IMG/VR virus record: IMGVR_UViG_3300037826_000130
Location: 1 to 26,095 of that record
Source: a virus
Length of the DNA stretch: 26,095 nt
Strand: one strand, 5' to 3'
Of the stretch, positions 3,522-26,095 are shown piece after piece. Positions within the stretch are counted from its first letter, which is position 1. Each line of letters opens with the position of its first letter. Below the pieces are notes generated by a model. That model had not been told where the DNA came from. It saw only the letters and a list, made by a program, of their open reading frames with translations, and searched no databases. Position numbers and translations under genes: made by a program.

Positions 3522-3830
3522 TTATTCCTTCTCTTTGAGACTCTCTCGAATCTTCGGCAAGGCAATACGGTCAATGTAAAGCACCTTCCGCCAGTCGGTT
3601 TCATTGCCCCCAAGCTCGCGGACCAGCTTAAGAGCTGAAACGGAGCTTATCGACATGATTCCCCCAAAGGAGGCGGGGCGTTCGTGCAGGTTGCAAATCT
3701 GCCAAACGTCCATGGCAAAGAGGTTCGTTGGCAAAAGCTCCGGGCGGCGGCATTCATCACAGGGAGGCTCCCCATCATATGCCTTTTGACATGCTTCGCA
3801 GTCCGCGGCGCCGGAGTATTGCCACTCAAT
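3522..3830 (-). CDS. T-like tail assembly chaperone frame with CxxC zinc ribbon
   Basis: This frame follows the G-like chaperone and ends in TAA just before the tape measure start, the place of lambda gpT. It lies in the -1 frame relative to the G-like gene. Read upstream of the first TTG (3734) it is still protein-like: it starts IEWQYSGAADCEACQKAYDG and contains two Cys pairs (codons at 3800/3791 and 3761/3752) spaced like a zinc ribbon, then a helical part ending IRESLKEKE. No ATG, GTG or TTG exists in this frame between 3830 and 3737, so the ribbon can only be made by a -1 frameshift out of the G-like gene, or from the ATT at 3830. A TTG start at 3734 would give 70 residues lacking the ribbon. 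Start and mode of expression are inference. Confidence 0.65.
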   Translation of the reverse strand: MEWQYSGAADCEACQKAYDGEPPCDECRRPELLPTNLFAMDVWQICNLHERPASFGGIMSISSVSALKLVRELGGNETDWRKVLYIDRIALPKIRESLKEKE

Positions 3831-4201
3831 TACTCCCCCAGGTTTTCGTAATCCACCCGGCTTTCTTTTTCTGCCTTCTCATCAAGCAGATTGAGGACGG
3901 TCACGGCGTCGTTGAAGTTGTTCTCGACGAACTCTTTTCGTCGCTCCGGAGTGCAGTCGACCTCGAGCAGATCGCCATTGTCGCCCTCCTCCACCACGCC
4001 GGACCAGGCCCGGAAGGTTTTGACGAAGCGCTCTTTCAGGACCTCGATGTTGTCGGTTTCCGGCCGCCCACCACCGCGATAGGTAGTGTGCTTCTCCGCA
4101 AGCTTCTTGCGGGCAGTCGTTCCGAAAGGAACTCCGGTAAAAGTTGCTCCCTGGTGCTCCACCGTGTACGCCTTGTCTTTCTTCGCCAGTTTGATCGCCA
4201 T
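3830..4201 (-). CDS. G-like tail assembly chaperone
   Basis: This 123-residue protein starts at the ATG at 4201, preceded by GGGGAAAGGAATTGAGAAG, and ends in TAA at 3830. It is highly charged, begins MAIKLAKKDKAYTVEHQG and has an acidic, helical C-terminal half ending DYENLGE. It lies between the tail tube gene and the tape measure gene, the conserved place of the first tail assembly chaperone (lambda gpG), which binds the tape measure protein and recruits tube subunits. The next frame overlaps its stop codon, the usual G/GT arrangement. The assignment rests on position and character more than on a distinctive motif. Confidence 0.7.
   Translation of the reverse strand: MAIKLAKKDKAYTVEHQGATFTGVPFGTTARKKLAEKHTTYRGGGRPETDNIEVLKERFVKTFRAWSGVVEEGDNGDLLEVDCTPERRKEFVENNFNDAVTVLNLLDEKAEKESRVDYENLGE
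3833..3841 (-). promoter_or_regulatory. Candidate -1 ribosomal frameshift site at end of the G-like gene
   Basis: Just before the TAA of the G-like gene the minus strand reads CTG GGG GAG TAA. The run of five G (3835-3839) lets the glycyl-tRNA on GGG re-pair perfectly after a one-base backward slip, which would move the ribosome into the open T-like frame. It is not a perfect lambda-type XXXYYYZ heptamer, since the GAG codon re-pairs poorly. The site is proposed because the downstream zinc-ribbon coding sequence has no ordinary start codon. Confidence 0.4.
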
Positions 4202-5475: not shown

Positions 5476-5889
5476 TTACTCGTTGACCCAGGCCCACCAG
5501 GGGGCCGTCACCGTATGCTGATAAAGCGTTCCCGCCGCATTCAGGCCATTATCATTGGTATAGGCGGACTTGAACCTGACCTCTCCCACGTCTTTCAGGT
5601 GAAAAAGAGCCTCCACATCGCCGGCCAGAGCCGCCCCGCTCCGGCTTCCAATGTTTGGCCCTGTAAAAACCTGAATTTTGACCACGCCCCTGCGTATCCC
5701 TACCCCCGAAGACCCAACCTCCCTATTGTTTGTCTCATCCGGCAAAACGGTGCACCGCACCCACGGCAAGGGTTTACCGTCATTGTCTTTCGGTGAATTG
5801 AAAGGAACATTTGGCCATGCAATAGGCGTACTGCTCCAATTGGCCGAAAAGTGTGTCTCAATGTCCTGGAGAACCTCGGTGAGCGTCAT
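5476..5889 (-). CDS. Tail terminator-like protein
   Basis: This 137-residue protein starts at the ATG at 5889 and overlaps the end of the preceding connector gene by 4 nt. Its N-terminus (MTLTEVLQDIETHF) is a helix, followed by IAWPNVPFNSP and a short beta domain with VRCTVLPDE and GVVKIQVFTG. This pattern, a leading helix then a mention of an input coordinate-like proline loop and a small alpha/beta fold, matches lambda gpU/DUF4128-type tail terminators, which cap the growing tube and join it to the head. Its place directly before the tube gene supports this. It ends in ATVTAPWWAWVNE-like aromatic residues. Family assignment is from memory of the pattern. Confidence 0.65.
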   Translation of the reverse strand: MTLTEVLQDIETHFSANWSSTPIAWPNVPFNSPKDNDGKPLPWVRCTVLPDETNNREVGSSGVGIRRGVVKIQVFTGPNIGSRSGAALAGDVEALFHLKDVGEVRFKSAYTNDNGLNAAGTLYQHTVTAPWWAWVNE

Positions 5890-10564: not shown

Positions 10565-10855
10565 CTAAAAGCCCTCCTGATATTCCCCGCACATCGGACA
10601 GTAAATTCCATCCGGATTGATCCGAAAAAGAGTGTTCCCGCACCCGCAAAACCAATCGGCTACACCGCGGTCAACGGGATATTTATAAACGAGCTTCTCG
10701 CACCCGCACCTCTCGCATTCATAGAACTGTATCTTGCCAACAGGGGCGACCAACGCGCACTCGTACCCGCAGGCAAGGCATATCCCATATCCGGACAACC
10801 ATTGTTCTTTACCCGCCTCTTCTTTGTGATCCTTGAGCCTGATAATTTCGGCCAA
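10565..10855 (-). CDS. Zinc-ribbon protein with three Cys clusters
   Basis: This 96-residue protein starts at a TTG at 10855 that overlaps the stop of the preceding gene (TAATTG), with GGAGGGGGAG in front. It has Cys pairs CLAC (26-29), CERCGC (48-53), CGC (70-72) and CPMC (86-89), which can form two zinc ribbons (GICLACGYEC, ECERCGCEKLV and FCGCGNTLFRINPDGIYCPMCGEY). Proteins like this are common in phage head modules and may bind nucleic acid or another protein. I do not recognise the family. Confidence 0.7.
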   Translation of the reverse strand: MAEIIRLKDHKEEAGKEQWLSGYGICLACGYECALVAPVGKIQFYECERCGCEKLVYKYPVDRGVADWFCGCGNTLFRINPDGIYCPMCGEYQEGF

Positions 10856-11032
10856 TTACTCCCCCTCCGGCCCGGCCGGCTCAAACTGGATCCCGTTGTC
10901 CCCGGGATACGGCTTCCGATGATCATGCTTGCCGAATAAAATGTCATCCGGGATGCCCTCCGGAAAGGCTTCACACGTGTAATCATCCCGGTAATGCTTG
11001 CATTCAAAACAAATCGGCTCATACAGTGTCAT
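10856..11032 (-). CDS. Short phage protein with ICFECKHY motif
   Basis: This 58-residue protein starts at the ATG at 11032, overlapping the MuF gene stop as ATGA, and ends at TAA (10856-10858). It has a CxxC pair (ICFECKHY) and one further Cys ([13 protein letters not shown]), then [17 protein letters not shown]. The pattern of Cys, AFPxGIP and HxxPYPGDxGIxFEP recurs in small proteins next to the MuF/portal genes of many tailed phages; I know of no established function. The overlaps on both sides place it firmly in the operon. Confidence 0.8.
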
Positions 11033-12792
11033 TTGAGCTTAACCTCCGAGAAAGTGTTAAATAATTCAATGTATTCAATTTTTAATGCTTCGCCGCGCTC
11101 GTTCTTGACAAAGATTTCTGCCAAAGACTCGTTGATGTCTGTTGCAGCATACCTGCTCAGTCCCTCTCGATCTTTTACCGGCGGGTAATCGATATCGAAG
11201 GAACGGCTCTGTTTCTTGGCAAGGACAACGCCCTGCACCGTAAGATTGTGGCCGTATTCGTGAGAGACAATGTCTTTCATATCCTTGGCGGCCCACCAAC
11301 CCTTCTTCTTCACCTCGGCTATTTTCTCGTTGATTTCCTCGAGGCCGGAAAACCTGTCGAAGTAGCCCTGGTTAATGAACAATTGGCGCTCAGTCACCTG
11401 ATTTCCCTTCAGCATAGCTACATTCATCGCAGGCGTTCCACGCCAATTGCCGGACTTCCGGTTCCCCACAGTCACTTTATCGTATTTGACCCCATATTTC
11501 TTCACGAGGGTGTCGAGCTGCTCATTGATGTCATTGGCAAGGTCGACACTCGCAAGCTTTCTGTAATCAACCTTGCCGGCAATCCCTCTCTTGATCGCCC
11601 ATTCCTGGGCCTCGGCAATCGTCTTGGCGGGGACGAATGCTGGAGTTGGAGTGCCGCCGCCAATCGGCCCCAGCCCCTTCTTTTTGGCCAGCTGCGCAAG
11701 AGTCAACTGGTTGCCCCGGGCATCCGCCAGGTCCTGCAACTGGATCCGGCCGTCCTTCCAGAGCTTGTATCTCCAGGGGCCCAAGGTCTGCTGCTGCAGT
11801 TGCTGCGGCAGCTGACGGAAAAACACGTCCATGCCGCCGTCGATCCTGCCGGCATCGAGAAGGGGCTGGCCACCGGTGCCCGTCTTTCCCCTCCGGATCT
11901 CACCGGTGAGCGGATCCACCTTGCCCCTGACCGTGTAAGGGCGTGTGGCGTCTTCGAGGTCATCGAGCGGGATCCCGAGCTCTCGATAAGACTTTGTTAT
12001 CCACCTCTTGATGCAGCGGCAGTTTGGATGAAGGGGAATCGTGGGCCCTCCGTTGACCGGGTACACTTCATCCCTGGCATCCAGAGCGAGACACCGCAGG
12101 CACGTGCCATGGCCATTTGAAAAATCGCCATTTTCCAGAACTGCAGACCACTTCCAACCCTTCATCAGGTCTTCGTTTTCTGCCGCCACCCGATCCTGCG
12201 CTTTCACGTTCGCGCTTTGCACCCAGGACCGGACCAAGGTATCCGCATTGTCCGCGGCCTCTCCCATAAGACCCCGGATCCGTCTCGAAAGCTTCCGGTA
12301 CGACTCCCCGCGGAACAAGCCGGCGCCCAGCTCCTGCTTCAGCTTATCCTGCAGCGGATAATCAAACGTTCGGCTCACCCAGTCTTCGAGATGCATTCCT
12401 CCCACTGGTTCTGCCAGGAAAGCAGCAATCTGCTCGGCCCCGAGCTGCACCATCGAAACGTTCGCCGCCCTTCCCCCTACGCTCATTATCGAGCTGTGAG
12501 CGGCTACCGACTGCTCGTAAGCGATCGAGGCGATCTCGTTGACGTCTTCTCCGAGCTGTGATTTAATCCCTGCAGTGAGCTGGTCGAGCTCGGTCAGAAG
12601 CTGGAAGTTGCGCTCATCGGTCCACGTCAGTTCACCATAGATCTGATCCAGGGCCCCAAGGATCTCGTTTCTGGCCTGATCTACCGATTTCAGCACCTCG
12701 TTTAACGCTTGATCCTCGAACTGGTCCAGCTTATAACGCCAGCGGATGTTCCGGATTGTCATGTACAAATCAATTCGATCGCGAGGCTTCAT
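11029..12792 (-). CDS. MuF-type head protein fused to a C-terminal zincin domain
   Basis: This 587-residue protein starts at the ATG at 12792 and is preceded in frame by a stop. Residues 160-275 carry the MuF/SPP1 gp7 signature: C231 and C234 ([10 protein letters not shown]), then [14 protein letters not shown] with H255, C258 and C260. This domain binds the portal and enters the head. A linker around 320-375 includes [16 protein letters not shown]. The last 180 residues look like a metallopeptidase: [12 protein letters not shown] gives H511, E512 and H515, and a helix with NESLAEIF (E555 or E559) could supply the third zinc ligand. MuF proteins with variable C-terminal toxin domains are a known group; the head is ejected with the DNA, so this domain may act in the newly infected cell or in assembly. 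The zincin reading is strong for the motif, inferred for function. Confidence 0.85.
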
Positions 12793-18148: not shown

Positions 18149-18385
18149 CTATAAAACCATGCTTCCAAGCCACAGCCCGGACAATGCCCCGGCCATGGCC
18201 CCGGATGAATATACAAACCGCTCCGGCCATCCGCCGAAAGCAGCACTTTTGACGTTCATCGTCCAAACAAACGAGATCGCAAAACCACCGACCGCCACGC
18301 CCGGCCAGAATTCTCGCGCGATGAAGTATGTTTGGGCGGAGACAAGAAAAACCTGGAGCCAGCCTCGGAGAAACAGCGATTTCAT
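18149..18385 (-). CDS. Small membrane protein
   Basis: This 78-residue protein starts at the ATG at 18385, overlapping the helicase-methyltransferase stop as ATGA, and its stop sits beside the Shine-Dalgarno of the initiator gene. It has two to three hydrophobic segments (LFLRGWLQVFLVSAQTYFI, WPGVAVGGFAISFVWTM, AMAGALSGLWLGSMVL) and few charges. Similar small, multi-span proteins with an FLVSAxTY.IA start are common in phage early operons; their role is not established. It is not holin-like by context, since no lysin is nearby. Confidence 0.65.
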   Translation of the reverse strand: MKSLFLRGWLQVFLVSAQTYFIAREFWPGVAVGGFAISFVWTMNVKSAAFGGWPERFVYSSGAMAGALSGLWLGSMVL

Positions 18386-20877
18386 GCCGCCACCTCTTCT
18401 TTCTCCAGGTCAAACAACGTCGGCGCCGTCAGGTCCTGCTCCTGGATCTTCAAATACCTGACGCCATCTGCGAAATAATCCGGATTCAGCTCAACCCCTC
18501 GTCCTTTCCTCCCGAGCTTCACCGCCCGGAGCGGAACCGTCATGAGCCCACCGAACGGATCAAAAACGAGATCACCCTCGTTCGAGTACCGGGTGATGAT
18601 GCGGTCCACGATATCGAGCTGCAGGGGGCAGATGTGATTGTTAAGACGCTTTTTTGTCTGCTCGCTGTTGAGCGTGCGCATGCGGTTGACATCGGTCCAG
18701 ACGTCGGGGTGATTAGAGACCGGAGCCAGACTCATGAATGTTGCGGGCAGCGCCCCCTTTGCGTCCAGCTTCTCTCCAAGCTCAACGTGAAGCCCGTAAT
18801 CATAGATGTGCTCCGCATCGTATTTCCGGAAAGCACGATACAGCGTTTCAGCCGAATAGCATGCCATTTCATCCGCGGATAAAAGTCTATCACCGGAGCT
18901 CCGCCAAAAAGCATGGGCGTCAACCTGCCACCTGGCCCGGGTGTACTCGGCCTTGTCTTTGGATACCGGCTCATCGGCGTAGCCCTTAGAGCGGTCCGTC
19001 TGCGGCTTTCGCATGAGCACGATATATTCCGGAGATCCAACCCCCATCTTTGTGCCGTCCTTGCACTGCTCGGACCAGCCAAGCCGATACGTCTGGTTGT
19101 TTTCACGGACGACATCGGTAACCACCGTGATTAAGCCCATGTAATCAAACCCGTGCTTCATGCAGTGGAATATGCACTCGGCATGGAAGGGGGAAACGGT
19201 GGGCGCTCCTTTTCCGGTCACGTTGCCGAACAAGATGCGATCTTTCACATGGCAGGCATAGATCCGGCCGGGCTTTAAAATCCGGTGCAGGTGGGGGGTT
19301 AAGAAGTCCATCTGTTCCCAGAAATGAGCGCTATCGTCCGTGTGGCCGAAGTCGTTGTAGGATGGCGTGTACTCGTAATGGTTTGAAAATGGGATCGAGG
19401 TATGGATCAAGCCGACAGAATTATCTTCCATCGTTTCACATTCAAGCACACAATCGTTATTCGCAACCGTCCAACCCTCGCCGGATTCTTCAACGCGCTC
19501 AATGCCTATCGACCTTCGAAGCTCGCCCTCTCTTTCGATGTGAGAAAGCCCATATTGCTTAATAAGCTCCGTCATTCTTGCGACCATCTTCTCGTGAGCC
19601 GCCCACTTCTCTTTCAGGATTTCCAAAATGCGGCGCTCAGAGTCGGTATAGATCAGGTGGATGTGGCACTCTTTGTCTTGCAGAAAACGGTAGATGCGGT
19701 GAACGGACTGGATGAAATCGTTGAACTTGAATCCGATGCCGAGGAAGATAGCCTTGTGGCAATGACGCTGGAAGTTGCACCCGGATCCGGAAAGGACAGG
19801 CTTTGTGGCAAGGTACTGAAACTTGCCGTTTGAAAAATCAATTATGCGCTGTTCTCGGGTGTCAAGGTCCTGGCTGCCGTATACCTCGCACGCATGCGGA
19901 ATGGCTTTTTTGATAGCATGCCGCTCCGCTTCCTGGTCGTGCCAGAGCAGGTAGTGACTGTCCGGGTCCGCTTGCAGGATTTCCATTGCCTTTTCGATTC
20001 TGGCGGCTATACTTTCCCGCTTCTCCTTCGCCGCCACCTGCAAGCTCGCCGAAGCATCGTTGAAAAGCCCCATCTGGCCATCACGGTCGGGATGAAAGCC
20101 GGTTTCAGACTTCACCTCGTGATAATGAACGTGGAGCTCGGGGAGGAGGTATCCATCATCCGAATAGCCAAGGTCGGACGGCTTCTGCAGGAAAATCGCC
20201 CAGCTGGACACCCAGAGCCAAAACTCGAGCTCTTTGTGTTTGTACAATGTCAAATTGTTCGCCTTCTGGCTGTCCCGCTGAAAAAACCGGGTCAGGGCCT
20301 GGCCGGTATCCATAATGCCGAGAAAACCGGCGTAATGAATCAGTTCTTTATATCGATTCGGCGAAGGCGTTGCCGTAGCCACGAACCGATATTTGACCGA
20401 CTCAAAAAGCGTCAAAAACTCCTGGTACGTCTTCGATCCAAATGACCTGAGCACGGACGCTTCATCGAGCGAAACCGCGTTGAACTCGTTAGGGTCGAGC
20501 CGGCCGTCACGGACCGATTCGTAATTCGTGATGTAGAGGCCGTCACCGGCAATCTCTTCGGTGCGGCGGATGAAGGCCAAGCAGATTTTGAGCTTTTCGG
20601 CATCGGCCCTGAACTCCTGGCGAACACCGAGCGGCATAATGATAAGCTGCCGACCACCTTCACGGGCGCCTATCAGCCTCATCACCTCCAGCTGCATGAA
20701 GGATTTTCCGAGGCCGAACGCCGCAAATATCGCCCTGCGCCCACCGAGGACCGCCCACTGCACTATGTCTTTCTGGTGGGGGAACAAGATCGGGTTGATC
20801 AGGTCCTGTTCGACATGGAAGCCCGTTCGAGTGTCGAGCTTGATTTTTGCTTCGAGGAACTGCTGGTAGGTGCTCAT
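18382..20877 (-). CDS. SNF2-like helicase fused to a DNA methyltransferase
   Basis: This 831-residue protein starts at ATG 20877, overlapping the preceding gene by 4 nt. The N-terminal half is a superfamily 2 ATPase: Walker A-like GLGKS (55-59), LDEAS (137-141) as the DEAH-type motif, TATPSPNRY (168-176), and QSVHRIYRFLQ (390-400) as motif VI. The C-terminal half is a permuted methyltransferase: TSIPF (493-497) in the place of the usual (S/D)PP(Y/F) motif IV, then FDPFGG (772-777) followed by GRKGRGVELNP as motif I and the E of the SAM pocket. Motif I normally continues G.GTT and here reads GLMT, and motif IV has Ile for Pro, so activity may differ. Fused enzymes of this kind may protect phage DNA or couple modification to translocation. 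Confidence 0.85.
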   Translation of the reverse strand: MSTYQQFLEAKIKLDTRTGFHVEQDLINPILFPHQKDIVQWAVLGGRRAIFAAFGLGKSFMQLEVMRLIGAREGGRQLIIMPLGVRQEFRADAEKLKICLAFIRRTEEIAGDGLYITNYESVRDGRLDPNEFNAVSLDEASVLRSFGSKTYQEFLTLFESVKYRFVATATPSPNRYKELIHYAGFLGIMDTGQALTRFFQRDSQKANNLTLYKHKELEFWLWVSSWAIFLQKPSDLGYSDDGYLLPELHVHYHEVKSETGFHPDRDGQMGLFNDASASLQVAAKEKRESIAARIEKAMEILQADPDSHYLLWHDQEAERHAIKKAIPHACEVYGSQDLDTREQRIIDFSNGKFQYLATKPVLSGSGCNFQRHCHKAIFLGIGFKFNDFIQSVHRIYRFLQDKECHIHLIYTDSERRILEILKEKWAAHEKMVARMTELIKQYGLSHIEREGELRRSIGIERVEESGEGWTVANNDCVLECETMEDNSVGLIHTSIPFSNHYEYTPSYNDFGHTDDSAHFWEQMDFLTPHLHRILKPGRIYACHVKDRILFGNVTGKGAPTVSPFHAECIFHCMKHGFDYMGLITVVTDVVRENNQTYRLGWSEQCKDGTKMGVGSPEYIVLMRKPQTDRSKGYADEPVSKDKAEYTRARWQVDAHAFWRSSGDRLLSADEMACYSAETLYRAFRKYDAEHIYDYGLHVELGEKLDAKGALPATFMSLAPVSNHPDVWTDVNRMRTLNSEQTKKRLNNHICPLQLDIVDRIITRYSNEGDLVFDPFGGLMTVPLRAVKLGRKGRGVELNPDYFADGVRYLKIQEQDLTAPTLFDLEKEEVAA

Positions 20878-24089: not shown

Positions 24090-24794
24090 CTATATGATCT
24101 TCTTCCCTAATTCTTTCCAAAACTCTGTAATTGTATTAGCATATGCCACAATATCTCCCTTCTGAACGTAAATGTCATCCCCCAATAATGGTGTGAATAC
24201 CGAATGAGAAGGCTTGCTTTCAAAAATACCGCATAGTTCTTTTATCGATGGGGACTGAAAAAGGTCTGGTCTCTTTTTGAAGAGCTTCGCCGATGATACA
24301 CCCTGCCCATGTTTTATTGTATTCACTAAGCAGCGCAGCTCTTCTATTTTGTTCCAAATTGGGAACTTTTCTATATCAATGCCATGCTTTTGCAGTCTTT
24401 TTTTGATCTCCAGTAAGCATAAAAGATTCTTCTCATTTTCCTCCTGTGGGCTCAACAACTCCTTCCGGTGGAAAAGCATCAAATGCTGTTCAAAGCAATG
24501 GTAGAGCATGACAACGGCTACGTTGCAAAGGCCCTGCTTAAATTCGATCATTGAAGAAAAATAATTAATGCCAGCCTCGTGCGCATTTTCAGCAAAAATA
24601 GAGGGGTCAGCATCGCCTTCGGGATCAGCACGGGAGCAAAACTCATTGTAGATTTTCTTAGCATACTTTTCTGCTTCCTCATCAATCGAATTAAATGAGG
24701 GCAGCAATCGATTTAAGAATGTAGAAGCAATCCTCTCATTAGCGGGTATAAACTCTATCTCGAATTGATTCTGCCAAAACAAACCATTATGCAT
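24090..24794 (-). CDS. HEPN-like protein
   Basis: This protein of about 234 residues starts at ATG 24794, which shares one base with the nuclease stop (TGATG); a GTG at 24797 is the alternative. GAGGGG lies just upstream. It is almost fully helical: IFAENAHEAGINYFSSMIEF, VVMLYHCFEQHLMLFHRKEL, LLEIKKRLQKHGIDIEKF, and RCLVNTIKHGQGVSSAKL. The last stretch, Arg, six or seven residues, then KHG with a preceding Asn, is like the catalytic motif in HEPN-type ribonucleases or their structural relatives; the FEQHLMLFHR helix fits the first HEPN helix. It has no Cys-rich or membrane segment. The HEPN reading is suggestive, not proven. Confidence 0.65.
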   Translation of the reverse strand: MHNGLFWQNQFEIEFIPANERIASTFLNRLLPSFNSIDEEAEKYAKKIYNEFCSRADPEGDADPSIFAENAHEAGINYFSSMIEFKQGLCNVAVVMLYHCFEQHLMLFHRKELLSPQEENEKNLLCLLEIKKRLQKHGIDIEKFPIWNKIEELRCLVNTIKHGQGVSSAKLFKKRPDLFQSPSIKELCGIFESKPSHSVFTPLLGDDIYVQKGDIVAYANTITEFWKELGKKII

Positions 24795-25450
24795 CACGGC
24801 AACCCCTCACAAGCCACCCCATCACCATCACCATCCAACCGATGAGGATCCCCGGGCCCTTGCGAATCAAAAAACCGCTGAGCCTCTGCCTGCGTACTGA
24901 AATCGCTGCAGTCTTTGTCGGCGATCTTGGTTGAGCTGGCTGAGCGCCCTCCCCTCTTCTTTCCTCCTCCATGGCGCCAGTCCCAGGGTGGTATCGGATT
25001 GGATGATTCCCATAAGCCGGCGCCGGCTTGCTTGGCCTGGCGCTCCAGCCGCCGCCATTTACCGCATATCCGCTTATGGCAGTACCGATCATATACCCAA
25101 GCATAGCCGTTCATGATCAATGCCTCATTCAGGATCTTGCCATCCACATATATCAACCCGATCACACGGCCGTACCGATCCTGGCCAGCTGGCTCCACAT
25201 TGATGGTTTTGCCGCGGCACATTCGCTGGACAAAGCGCTTGGCTTTTATGCCGTATGGTTGGTCTTTCTCGGGGCAATCGATGCCGTAAAAGCGGATGTC
25301 GAGTTCTCGGCCTTTGCGGTTAACTTCGATTGTGTCGCCATCGTGGACGCGGTCGACGGTGGTTTGGAAGGCGAAGGAAAGAGAGGGGAAAAGAAGGAAA
25401 GCAATGAAGAAAAATAAACAACAGTACTTAATGGGGGATGATCTTGGCAT
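24794..25450 (-). CDS. Secreted SNase-like nuclease with C-terminal Excalibur domain
   Basis: This 218-residue protein starts at ATG 25450. Residues 1-28 are a signal peptide ([20 protein letters not shown]). The thermonuclease core follows: [22 protein letters not shown] (R53 and E61) and DRYGR (R95), corresponding to the R-E-R catalytic set and the calcium Asp residues of staphylococcal nuclease. [18 protein letters not shown] and [20 protein letters not shown] are also typical. Residues 180-218 are an Excalibur calcium-binding domain ([16 protein letters not shown], then [13 protein letters not shown]). Its end overlaps the HEPN-like gene, so the two are likely co-translated. Its proposed place is the periplasm or outside. 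Confidence 0.93.
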
Positions 25451-25486: not shown

Positions 25487-26095
25487 TCAAGATAACTTCT
25501 TGGACTCGATAGAAACCGATGTGATTTGATACTGGAAGGCTTCTACCGCTTTTAGCCTCTTATCATCAAATATAACATAGTTATTGCCATCAGAGATTGA
25601 GCTTTTAAATATTATTCCATGGTATCCTGTGTGCTTTAACAGTTCACAGAGGTATTGAGTTGGCAAATATTCAATGTTTGCTTCTCGTGGGATTACTGGT
25701 TTCGACAGTTCATTCCCGAGCAAGGTTAGATAGGGCATGTTTTTGTATAATAACTCTATCTCATTTTCATCGTTCAATGCAAAAGGACTAATAGTATTAA
25801 TCGGCTCTCGCAAATCCACTAATTCAAGTTTTCTGCTTATTTGAAATTCAGCAACCGTAACACTCTCACCCTTATGCCCCCTTATTTCTGAAATGGCCGT
25901 TTCAATCGTAGAAGCGACATAAAGATAAGGAATTCCATGGGGATTAGCCCGTCCGTTTGTTGCCACTTTCTGAGGAGGTTTTTTCATTTTTGAAAGTGGG
26001 TATGGTTTATCAGAAGCATTAATCCTTGCCCTATAAAACTTTTGCGTTCGGGGATGCAAAATCGTACCTAAATGTTTCCCGAAAGGTTCTATGCT
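25487..26095 (-). CDS. RES-domain protein, N-terminus beyond window
   Basis: The frame is open to the end of the window (203 codons), so the start is not seen; the first Met-like codon (TTG at 26059) is probably internal. The sequence shows the RES family pattern: FYRARI, PPQKVATNGRANPHGIPYLY, ASTIETAISEIRGHKGESVT as the conserved Arg/Tyr/Glu core, and YLPTQYLCELLKHTGYHGII toward the end, where 'YlpTQ...e....gydGi.y.Ss' is characteristic. RES proteins degrade NAD+ and often act as toxins with an Xre-type antitoxin gene upstream; that region is outside the window. It is 36 bp from the nuclease gene. AT-rich composition points to acquired DNA. Confidence 0.85.
   Translation of the reverse strand, partial: SIEPFGKHLGTILHPRTQKFYRARINASDKPYPLSKMKKPPQKVATNGRANPHGIPYLYVASTIETAISEIRGHKGESVTVAEFQISRKLELVDLREPINTISPFALNDENEIELLYKNMPYLTLLGNELSKPVIPREANIEYLPTQYLCELLKHTGYHGIIFKSSISDGNNYVIFDDKRLKAVEAFQYQITSVSIESKKLS

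Follow-up and report, generated by a model that had tools for sequence, protein, structure and literature searches.

A probable lambda-type G/GT tail-assembly chaperone pair with a five-G candidate slip site next to the G stop codon

The DNA analysed here (the window, 26,095 nucleotides) covers positions 1 to 26,095 of the IMG/VR virus record IMGVR_UViG_3300037826_000130, and in it tail genes follow each other in the order tail terminator, probable major tail protein, G, T (in the -1 frame) and tape measure (Table 1). Two overlapping frames separate the tail protein genes from the tape measure gene, the major tail protein being recognised from its position only, and the G/GT pair of phage lambda likewise precedes its tape measure gene. 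The tape measure frame matches PHROG tape measure families (best 7.2e-69), and the probable major tail protein matches nothing in Pfam or PHROG up to E 1. Beyond the tail terminator gene, further upstream of G, Neck1, head closure and adaptor genes are found. Near the head genes, a small protein with several Cys pairs, possibly zinc-binding, is encoded at 10565-10855 (minus strand; nothing in Pfam or PHROG at E <= 0.001). The frame at 11029-12792 (minus strand) encodes a Head morphogenesis / Mu F-like protein (phrog_241, 2.9e-41; Pfam Phage_Mu_F below the cut-off), with a long C-terminal extension containing HEYGH that looks metalloprotease-like by eye.

Table 1. Features of the tail region of the window, with positions counted from its first letter
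Feature	Positions	Strand	Remarks
Tape measure protein, 1172 aa	1..3516	minus	open at window end; TTG start as listed
T, -1 open frame	3522..3878	minus	without ATG/GTG/TTG before 3734
Two Cys pairs, CxxC-x9-CxxC, possible zinc ribbon	3750..3800	minus	start of T
G, predicted tail assembly chaperone, 123 aa	3830..4201	minus	ATG start, TAA stop, zero frame
Candidate slip site G_GGG_GAG (five G plus AG)	3833..3839	minus	directly 5' of G stop TAA
Shine-Dalgarno-like stretch CGGGTGGA	3852..3859	minus	12 nt upstream of slip site; possible stimulator
Probable major tail protein, 385 aa	4306..5463	minus	named by position only
Tail terminator gene	5476-5889		phrog_179

G of the window has no PHROG match up to E 1 and none above the curated cut-off in Pfam or NCBIfam. 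Its homologue at locus L005 (E 8e-11 with the G profile) matches phrog_313, Tail assembly chaperone, at 5.2e-8, and the homologue of contig L025 does so at 5e-4, while no phrog_313 match was obtained for the one of L003. An AlphaFold2 model of the window G, built from a six-sequence alignment (pLDDT 81), has five BFVD matches at E <= 0.001, four of them annotated as tail assembly or tape measure chaperone and the fifth uncharacterised; the fold search of this model against PDB gave none at E <= 0.001. On the fold match and the PHROG match of the L005 homologue, the G product is assigned as a predicted tail assembly chaperone. In the PDB sequence searches, G had a single weak hit (0.012) and T had three (0.32 and worse). 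Against phage GenBank records, tblastn gave four matches for T (E 7-9) and one for G (E 7), judged to be chance, and no match for the probable major tail protein, L011 T or L025 T.

On the minus strand, G ends with CTG (3841-3839), GGG (3838-3836), GAG (3835-3833) and TAA (3832-3830), so that five G occupy 3839-3835, and a -1 slip at this run leads into the T frame. The T frame opens at 3878, right after TGA (3881-3879), and closes with TAA at 3524-3522. Its four Cys codons begin at 3800, 3791, 3761 and 3752, and the TTG at 3734, downstream of all of them, is the earliest ATG, GTG or TTG in the frame; an ATT of this frame starts at 3830, sharing its A with the G stop. An earlier note, made from the letters of this DNA, had placed two Cys pairs ahead of any such start and had proposed that the five G before the G stop permit a -1 slip into T; frame, coordinates and codons are all as it described. 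It had also predicted a fusion of about 225 residues, and G joined to T by the slip has 226. Translation of T most likely covers 3833-3525, giving 103 residues fused to G. According to passages of PMC10885494, the second part of a frameshifted gene is expected to lack a start codon. Gene finders that depend on start codons would miss or shorten T, which is otherwise a routine annotation point.

With a -1 shift at G_GGG_GAG, the GGG in the P site re-pairs with GGG perfectly; in the A site the re-pairing from GAG to GGA is imperfect, and the Glu-tRNA can re-pair if G.U is allowed. Among 18 codon pairs in the overlap and just before it, GGG-GAG is one of four tied for the highest score, with 4 of 6 strict matches. 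As the earlier note said, the site is not a classic heptamer, since it departs from X_XXY_YYZ, with GGA where YYY is expected. Elsewhere in the window, G_GGG_GAR occurs in frame zero times in 5253 codons of the 14 other minus-strand ORFs.

To find relatives, the first 500 tape measure residues were used as query, which yielded 16 loci. The T profile matched L005 at 2.2e-31 (together with G), matched L010-L012 (0.0034) and L006 (0.023) weakly, and gave no match better than E 1 in the other 11. The closest contig, IMGVR_UViG_3300028822_000081 (L002, L003 and L024 in our numbering), has a G protein 85% identical and a T protein 75-76% identical to those of the window in protein searches. A search with a DNA pattern derived from the sequences found so far retrieved six contigs, namely the closest contig, the L005 contig and four more, and the G/T pair is present in 6 of 6; the pattern contained the slip site itself, and the L003 and L005 contigs had first been found by protein searches. 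A protein-alignment search gave the same six contigs and none lacking the site, a result only partly independent of the slip site because the junction Gly-Gly opens one of the two patterns used. Scans of genome contigs for relatives found none.

All seven contigs, window included, have CTG GGG GAR immediately ahead of the G stop. Exactly GGGGGAA is found in the four contigs of the L005 clade (L005, for instance, reads AAT CTG GGG GAA TGA), and GGGGGAG in the window, the L003 contig and L025. The seven contigs represent about four independent lineages, because L021 equals L022 over 1843 aligned bases and L005/L023 agree with L026 at 775 of 800. In the codon alignment of six sequences, from which L022 was omitted as a duplicate of L021, the residues N-L-G-E before the stop are common to all, and the preceding residues differ widely between the window clade and the L005/L025 clade. 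The shared T homology begins at the G run, with GG[VM]IEW; the window T is 75% identical to that of L002, 41-44% to those of L005, L025 and L021, and 23-25% to those of L011 and L006.

Compared with the closest contig, the overlap appears conserved more than chance would give. The best 60-base window is identical at 59 of 60 positions (regional median 44), and codons that encode the same residue differ at 1 of 15 in the last 15 G codons against 54 of 105 in the whole gene. The hypergeometric P for so few codon changes at the G end (last 15 codons, stop included) is 1.3e-4, to be read with the fact that five cut points were tried and picked after the data had been seen, with P from 1.3e-4 to 2.3e-3.

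The earlier note regarded the recoding signal as atypical in kind, which the comparison does not support: the signal is of a known type, since GGGGGAA has been published for SEA-PHAGES genes and for Corynebacterium phage phi16. SEA-PHAGES phages infect actinobacteria. In the parts of PMC10885494 consulted, GGGGGAA is the form that the 'fivetwo' motif of PRFect takes in 'the thousand motifs' of the SEA-PHAGES data; tail assembly chaperones make up 2397 of the 2476 joined genes there. The PRFect sites are presented there as annotated, without experimental testing. As in the window, the 'fivetwo' sites act in the -1 direction and consist of five G followed by the remainder of a Glu codon, with GAA in place of the GAG of the window; the L005 clade has GAA. 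For GGGGGAA, the authors suggest G.U re-pairing of the second tRNA (a passage of PMC10885494). As GAA and GAG both become GGA after the slip, GGGGGAG should behave like GGGGGAA.

For phi16, the relevant passages of PMC5506516 propose GGGGGAA together with an internal Shine-Dalgarno sequence and a downstream pseudoknot. Its gp14/gp14A pair (KY250482) has G_GGG_GAA in the same phase and near the G stop, like the window, and reads GTG GGG GAA GAC TAA where the window has GAG TAA. The phi16 T frame, unlike that of the window, carries no Cys pairs; counted from the slip site it has TTG at residue 7, GTG at residue 17 (the annotated start of ORF15) and its first ATG at residue 41. The overlap of TM4 contains GGGAAA, and a five-G run was absent among the motifs looked for. 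Among the literature matches listed, no description of GGGGGAG as a slip site of a tail gene was found; in passages of the one paper that combines these letters with frameshifting and tail assembly, they stand in a table of ribosome-binding sites, and its slip sites are GGGAAAC and AAAAAAG.

More distant relatives use another site. L011 with its relative L050, and L006, resemble the window in that a T-like -1 frame bearing Cys pairs follows a G-like ORF and precedes the tape measure gene (L011 2370-2801; L006 2283-2747), and differ in carrying the classic A_AAA_AAC in the overlap. This heptamer is found in L006, L010-L012 and L050; for L010 and L012 it is deduced from their T profile coordinates, which equal those of L011. 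L050 T is 81% identical to L011 T and keeps both the Cys pairs and A_AAA_AAC.

Two kinds of stimulator were considered. All six sequences tested have a Shine-Dalgarno-like stretch 8-16 nt upstream of the slip site, with a duplex energy of -7.0 kcal/mol in the window and the closest contig (L024) and about -10 in the other four. Among 883 positions in the window ORFs used as background, 7% are at <= -7.0 kcal/mol and 2% at <= -10; because 7% of positions reach its value, the stretch of the window is weak and suggestive only. Downstream RNA structure in the window family is no stronger than in shuffles (z from -1.1 to +0.9, three stretches each), so that a downstream stem-loop was set aside as a stimulator there, and a GAGTG...TACTC hairpin, present in the window and the L003 contig, is too weak to build on. 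Stems in the classic-heptamer relatives differ in this respect, beating shuffles in L011 (z -2.2 to -3.3) and in two of the three stretches of L006 (z -1.0, -4.7 and -2.7).

The absence of an ordinary start in T leaves the question of how the frame is entered. An improbable route, yet the best of the alternatives to slippage, is that T is made as a separate protein by termination-reinitiation at a codon overlapping the G stop, with the G run serving as Shine-Dalgarno sequence. TAATT in the window would supply such an overlap through a non-standard ATT, in L005, L021, L022 and L026 an ATG overlaps the TGA, and the G run could pair with the anti-Shine-Dalgarno. However, the candidate start varies (ATT, ATA or GTA, ATG) where the slip run is constant: the T codons at the G stop are GTA-ATT in the window and L003, GTA-ATA in L025 and ATG-ATA in L005, L021, L022 and L026. 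The ATT at 3830, which the earlier note offered as an alternative start, is weakened by the ATA that L025 has at that codon, and is rejected as the main reading since the codon varies between lineages. The gap between the end of the G run and the candidate start is also short, from 1 nt in L005 to 4 nt in the window, under the usual Shine-Dalgarno spacing. L011, L050 and L006 have no start before their first Cys pair and carry a classic heptamer, and in a passage of PMC5009743 the T part of lambda is described as reached by -1 frameshifting.

The earlier note had proposed comparing the overlap in homologues, separate ATG starts before the ribbon being evidence against it. An ATG in the T frame before the ribbon is present in four of the seven contigs and absent from the other three. 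Of these, the window and the closest contig (L024) have no ATG, GTG or TTG in T ahead of the Cys pairs, and the only one in L025 is a TTG that lies within G, 24 codons upstream of the slip site in the open -1 frame. This upstream TTG makes slippage slightly less and reinitiation slightly more credible. The ATG of the L005 clade is a by-product, because any codon ending in A followed by TGA yields ATG in the -1 frame; arising automatically from GAA TGA and overlapping the G stop, it is no proof of a separate T gene, though it could still be used for reinitiation there.

If ribosomes do slip, they might instead do so upstream, at the GAA AAA GAA run (3871-3863), which we consider very unlikely. 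There the P-site AAA would re-pair with AAA, the strict match count ties with that of the G site, and the stretch is conserved in the closest relative too; but the run is missing from L025 and the L005 clade, for which it was rejected, and the shared T homology starts at the G run. That the T frame is a pseudogene fragment, or one gene split by a sequencing error, is hardly credible: T lacks a start codon and a one-base change would join the frames, but the identical split and junction recur in seven contigs that, judging by their names, come from several metagenomes, and T is conserved as a protein at the identities given above for L002, L005, L025 and L021.

The locus is therefore best read as a lambda-type G/GT tail-assembly chaperone pair in which T would be reached by a -1 slip at G_GGG_GAG, a reading to which we give a probability of about 85% on sequence comparison. 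Lambda itself has a different slip sequence, GGGAAAG, and its T, to our knowledge, has no Cys pairs at the start. As proposed for the window, the -1 T frame of lambda is reached near the end of G, and the fusion is described as linking the tape measure and the tail subunit, with the two products at a molar ratio of 30:1 (passages of PMC5009743).

For the window, we infer that most ribosomes would translate G to its TAA and that a minority, at a rate likewise inferred, would slip back one base on G_GGG_GAG beside the stop. The Gly-tRNA would move from GGG to GGG, and the Glu-tRNA from GAG to GGA, where its middle pair would be G.U; both the Shine-Dalgarno-like stretch upstream and the neighbouring stop codon may assist. 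The slipped ribosomes would continue through the T frame and produce the GT fusion. If lambda is a guide, binding of the tape measure protein would fall to the G part and recruitment of the major tail protein to the T part. Between these parts, the Cys pairs with which T begins may fold into a small ribbon stabilised by zinc.

The earlier note had considered a zinc ribbon in T worth noting, and the Cys pairs are indeed conserved, CxxC...CxxC being found in 6 of 7 aligned T sequences, including the window and L011 (23% identity); in L006 the second pair is wider, and two ATG lie between the pairs. Every zinc profile, on the other hand, stays below its curated cut-off (Zn_ribbon_6 with 18 against 25 bits in the window, DZR_2 with 18.4 against 27 in L005), and no zinc family is among the profile matches listed for L011 and L006 T. 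The structure model of T (pLDDT 54.5, with residues 1-32 under 50) is too poor to use. In L011, T residues 61-142 match phrog_680 (labelled tape measure, 98 positions) at 9.1e-7, only past the ribbon, which fits a candidate ribbon placed ahead of a known phage tail domain. The zinc passages of PMC5313236 and PMC9030533 describe no such ribbon in T. Overall, the Cys pairs are a modest variant, a less usual and modestly interesting detail of the G/GT pair.

A tentative and on balance doubtful view is that these contigs make up a distinct tail-chaperone clade. Its zinc ribbon, just after the junction, would be present in GT only, and G_GGG_GAR would act with help from the Shine-Dalgarno-like stretch, independent of downstream structure. 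If so, only the rarer GT would carry the ribbon, and the slip site would be unlike the classic heptamer of the distant relatives. The small natural series from A_AAA_AAC (distant) to G_GGG_GAA and G_GGG_GAG (close) offers a test of how chaperone frameshift sites change, and could show whether the five-G motif, derived from annotation in PRFect, works with GAG. Besides, the conserved Cys pairs could be used to ask whether a metal site in GT has a role in tail assembly.

Several other genes were observed elsewhere in the window, all on the minus strand. The protein of 831 residues at 18382-20877 has a DNA methylase domain at residues 489-803 (PF01555), and its N-terminal half looks helicase-like by eye only. 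At 24794-25450 lies a Staphylococcal-nuclease homologue with an Excalibur domain, and at 25487-26059 a RES-domain protein (PF08808, 3.4e-16), a kind of protein that is the toxin in some toxin-antitoxin pairs.
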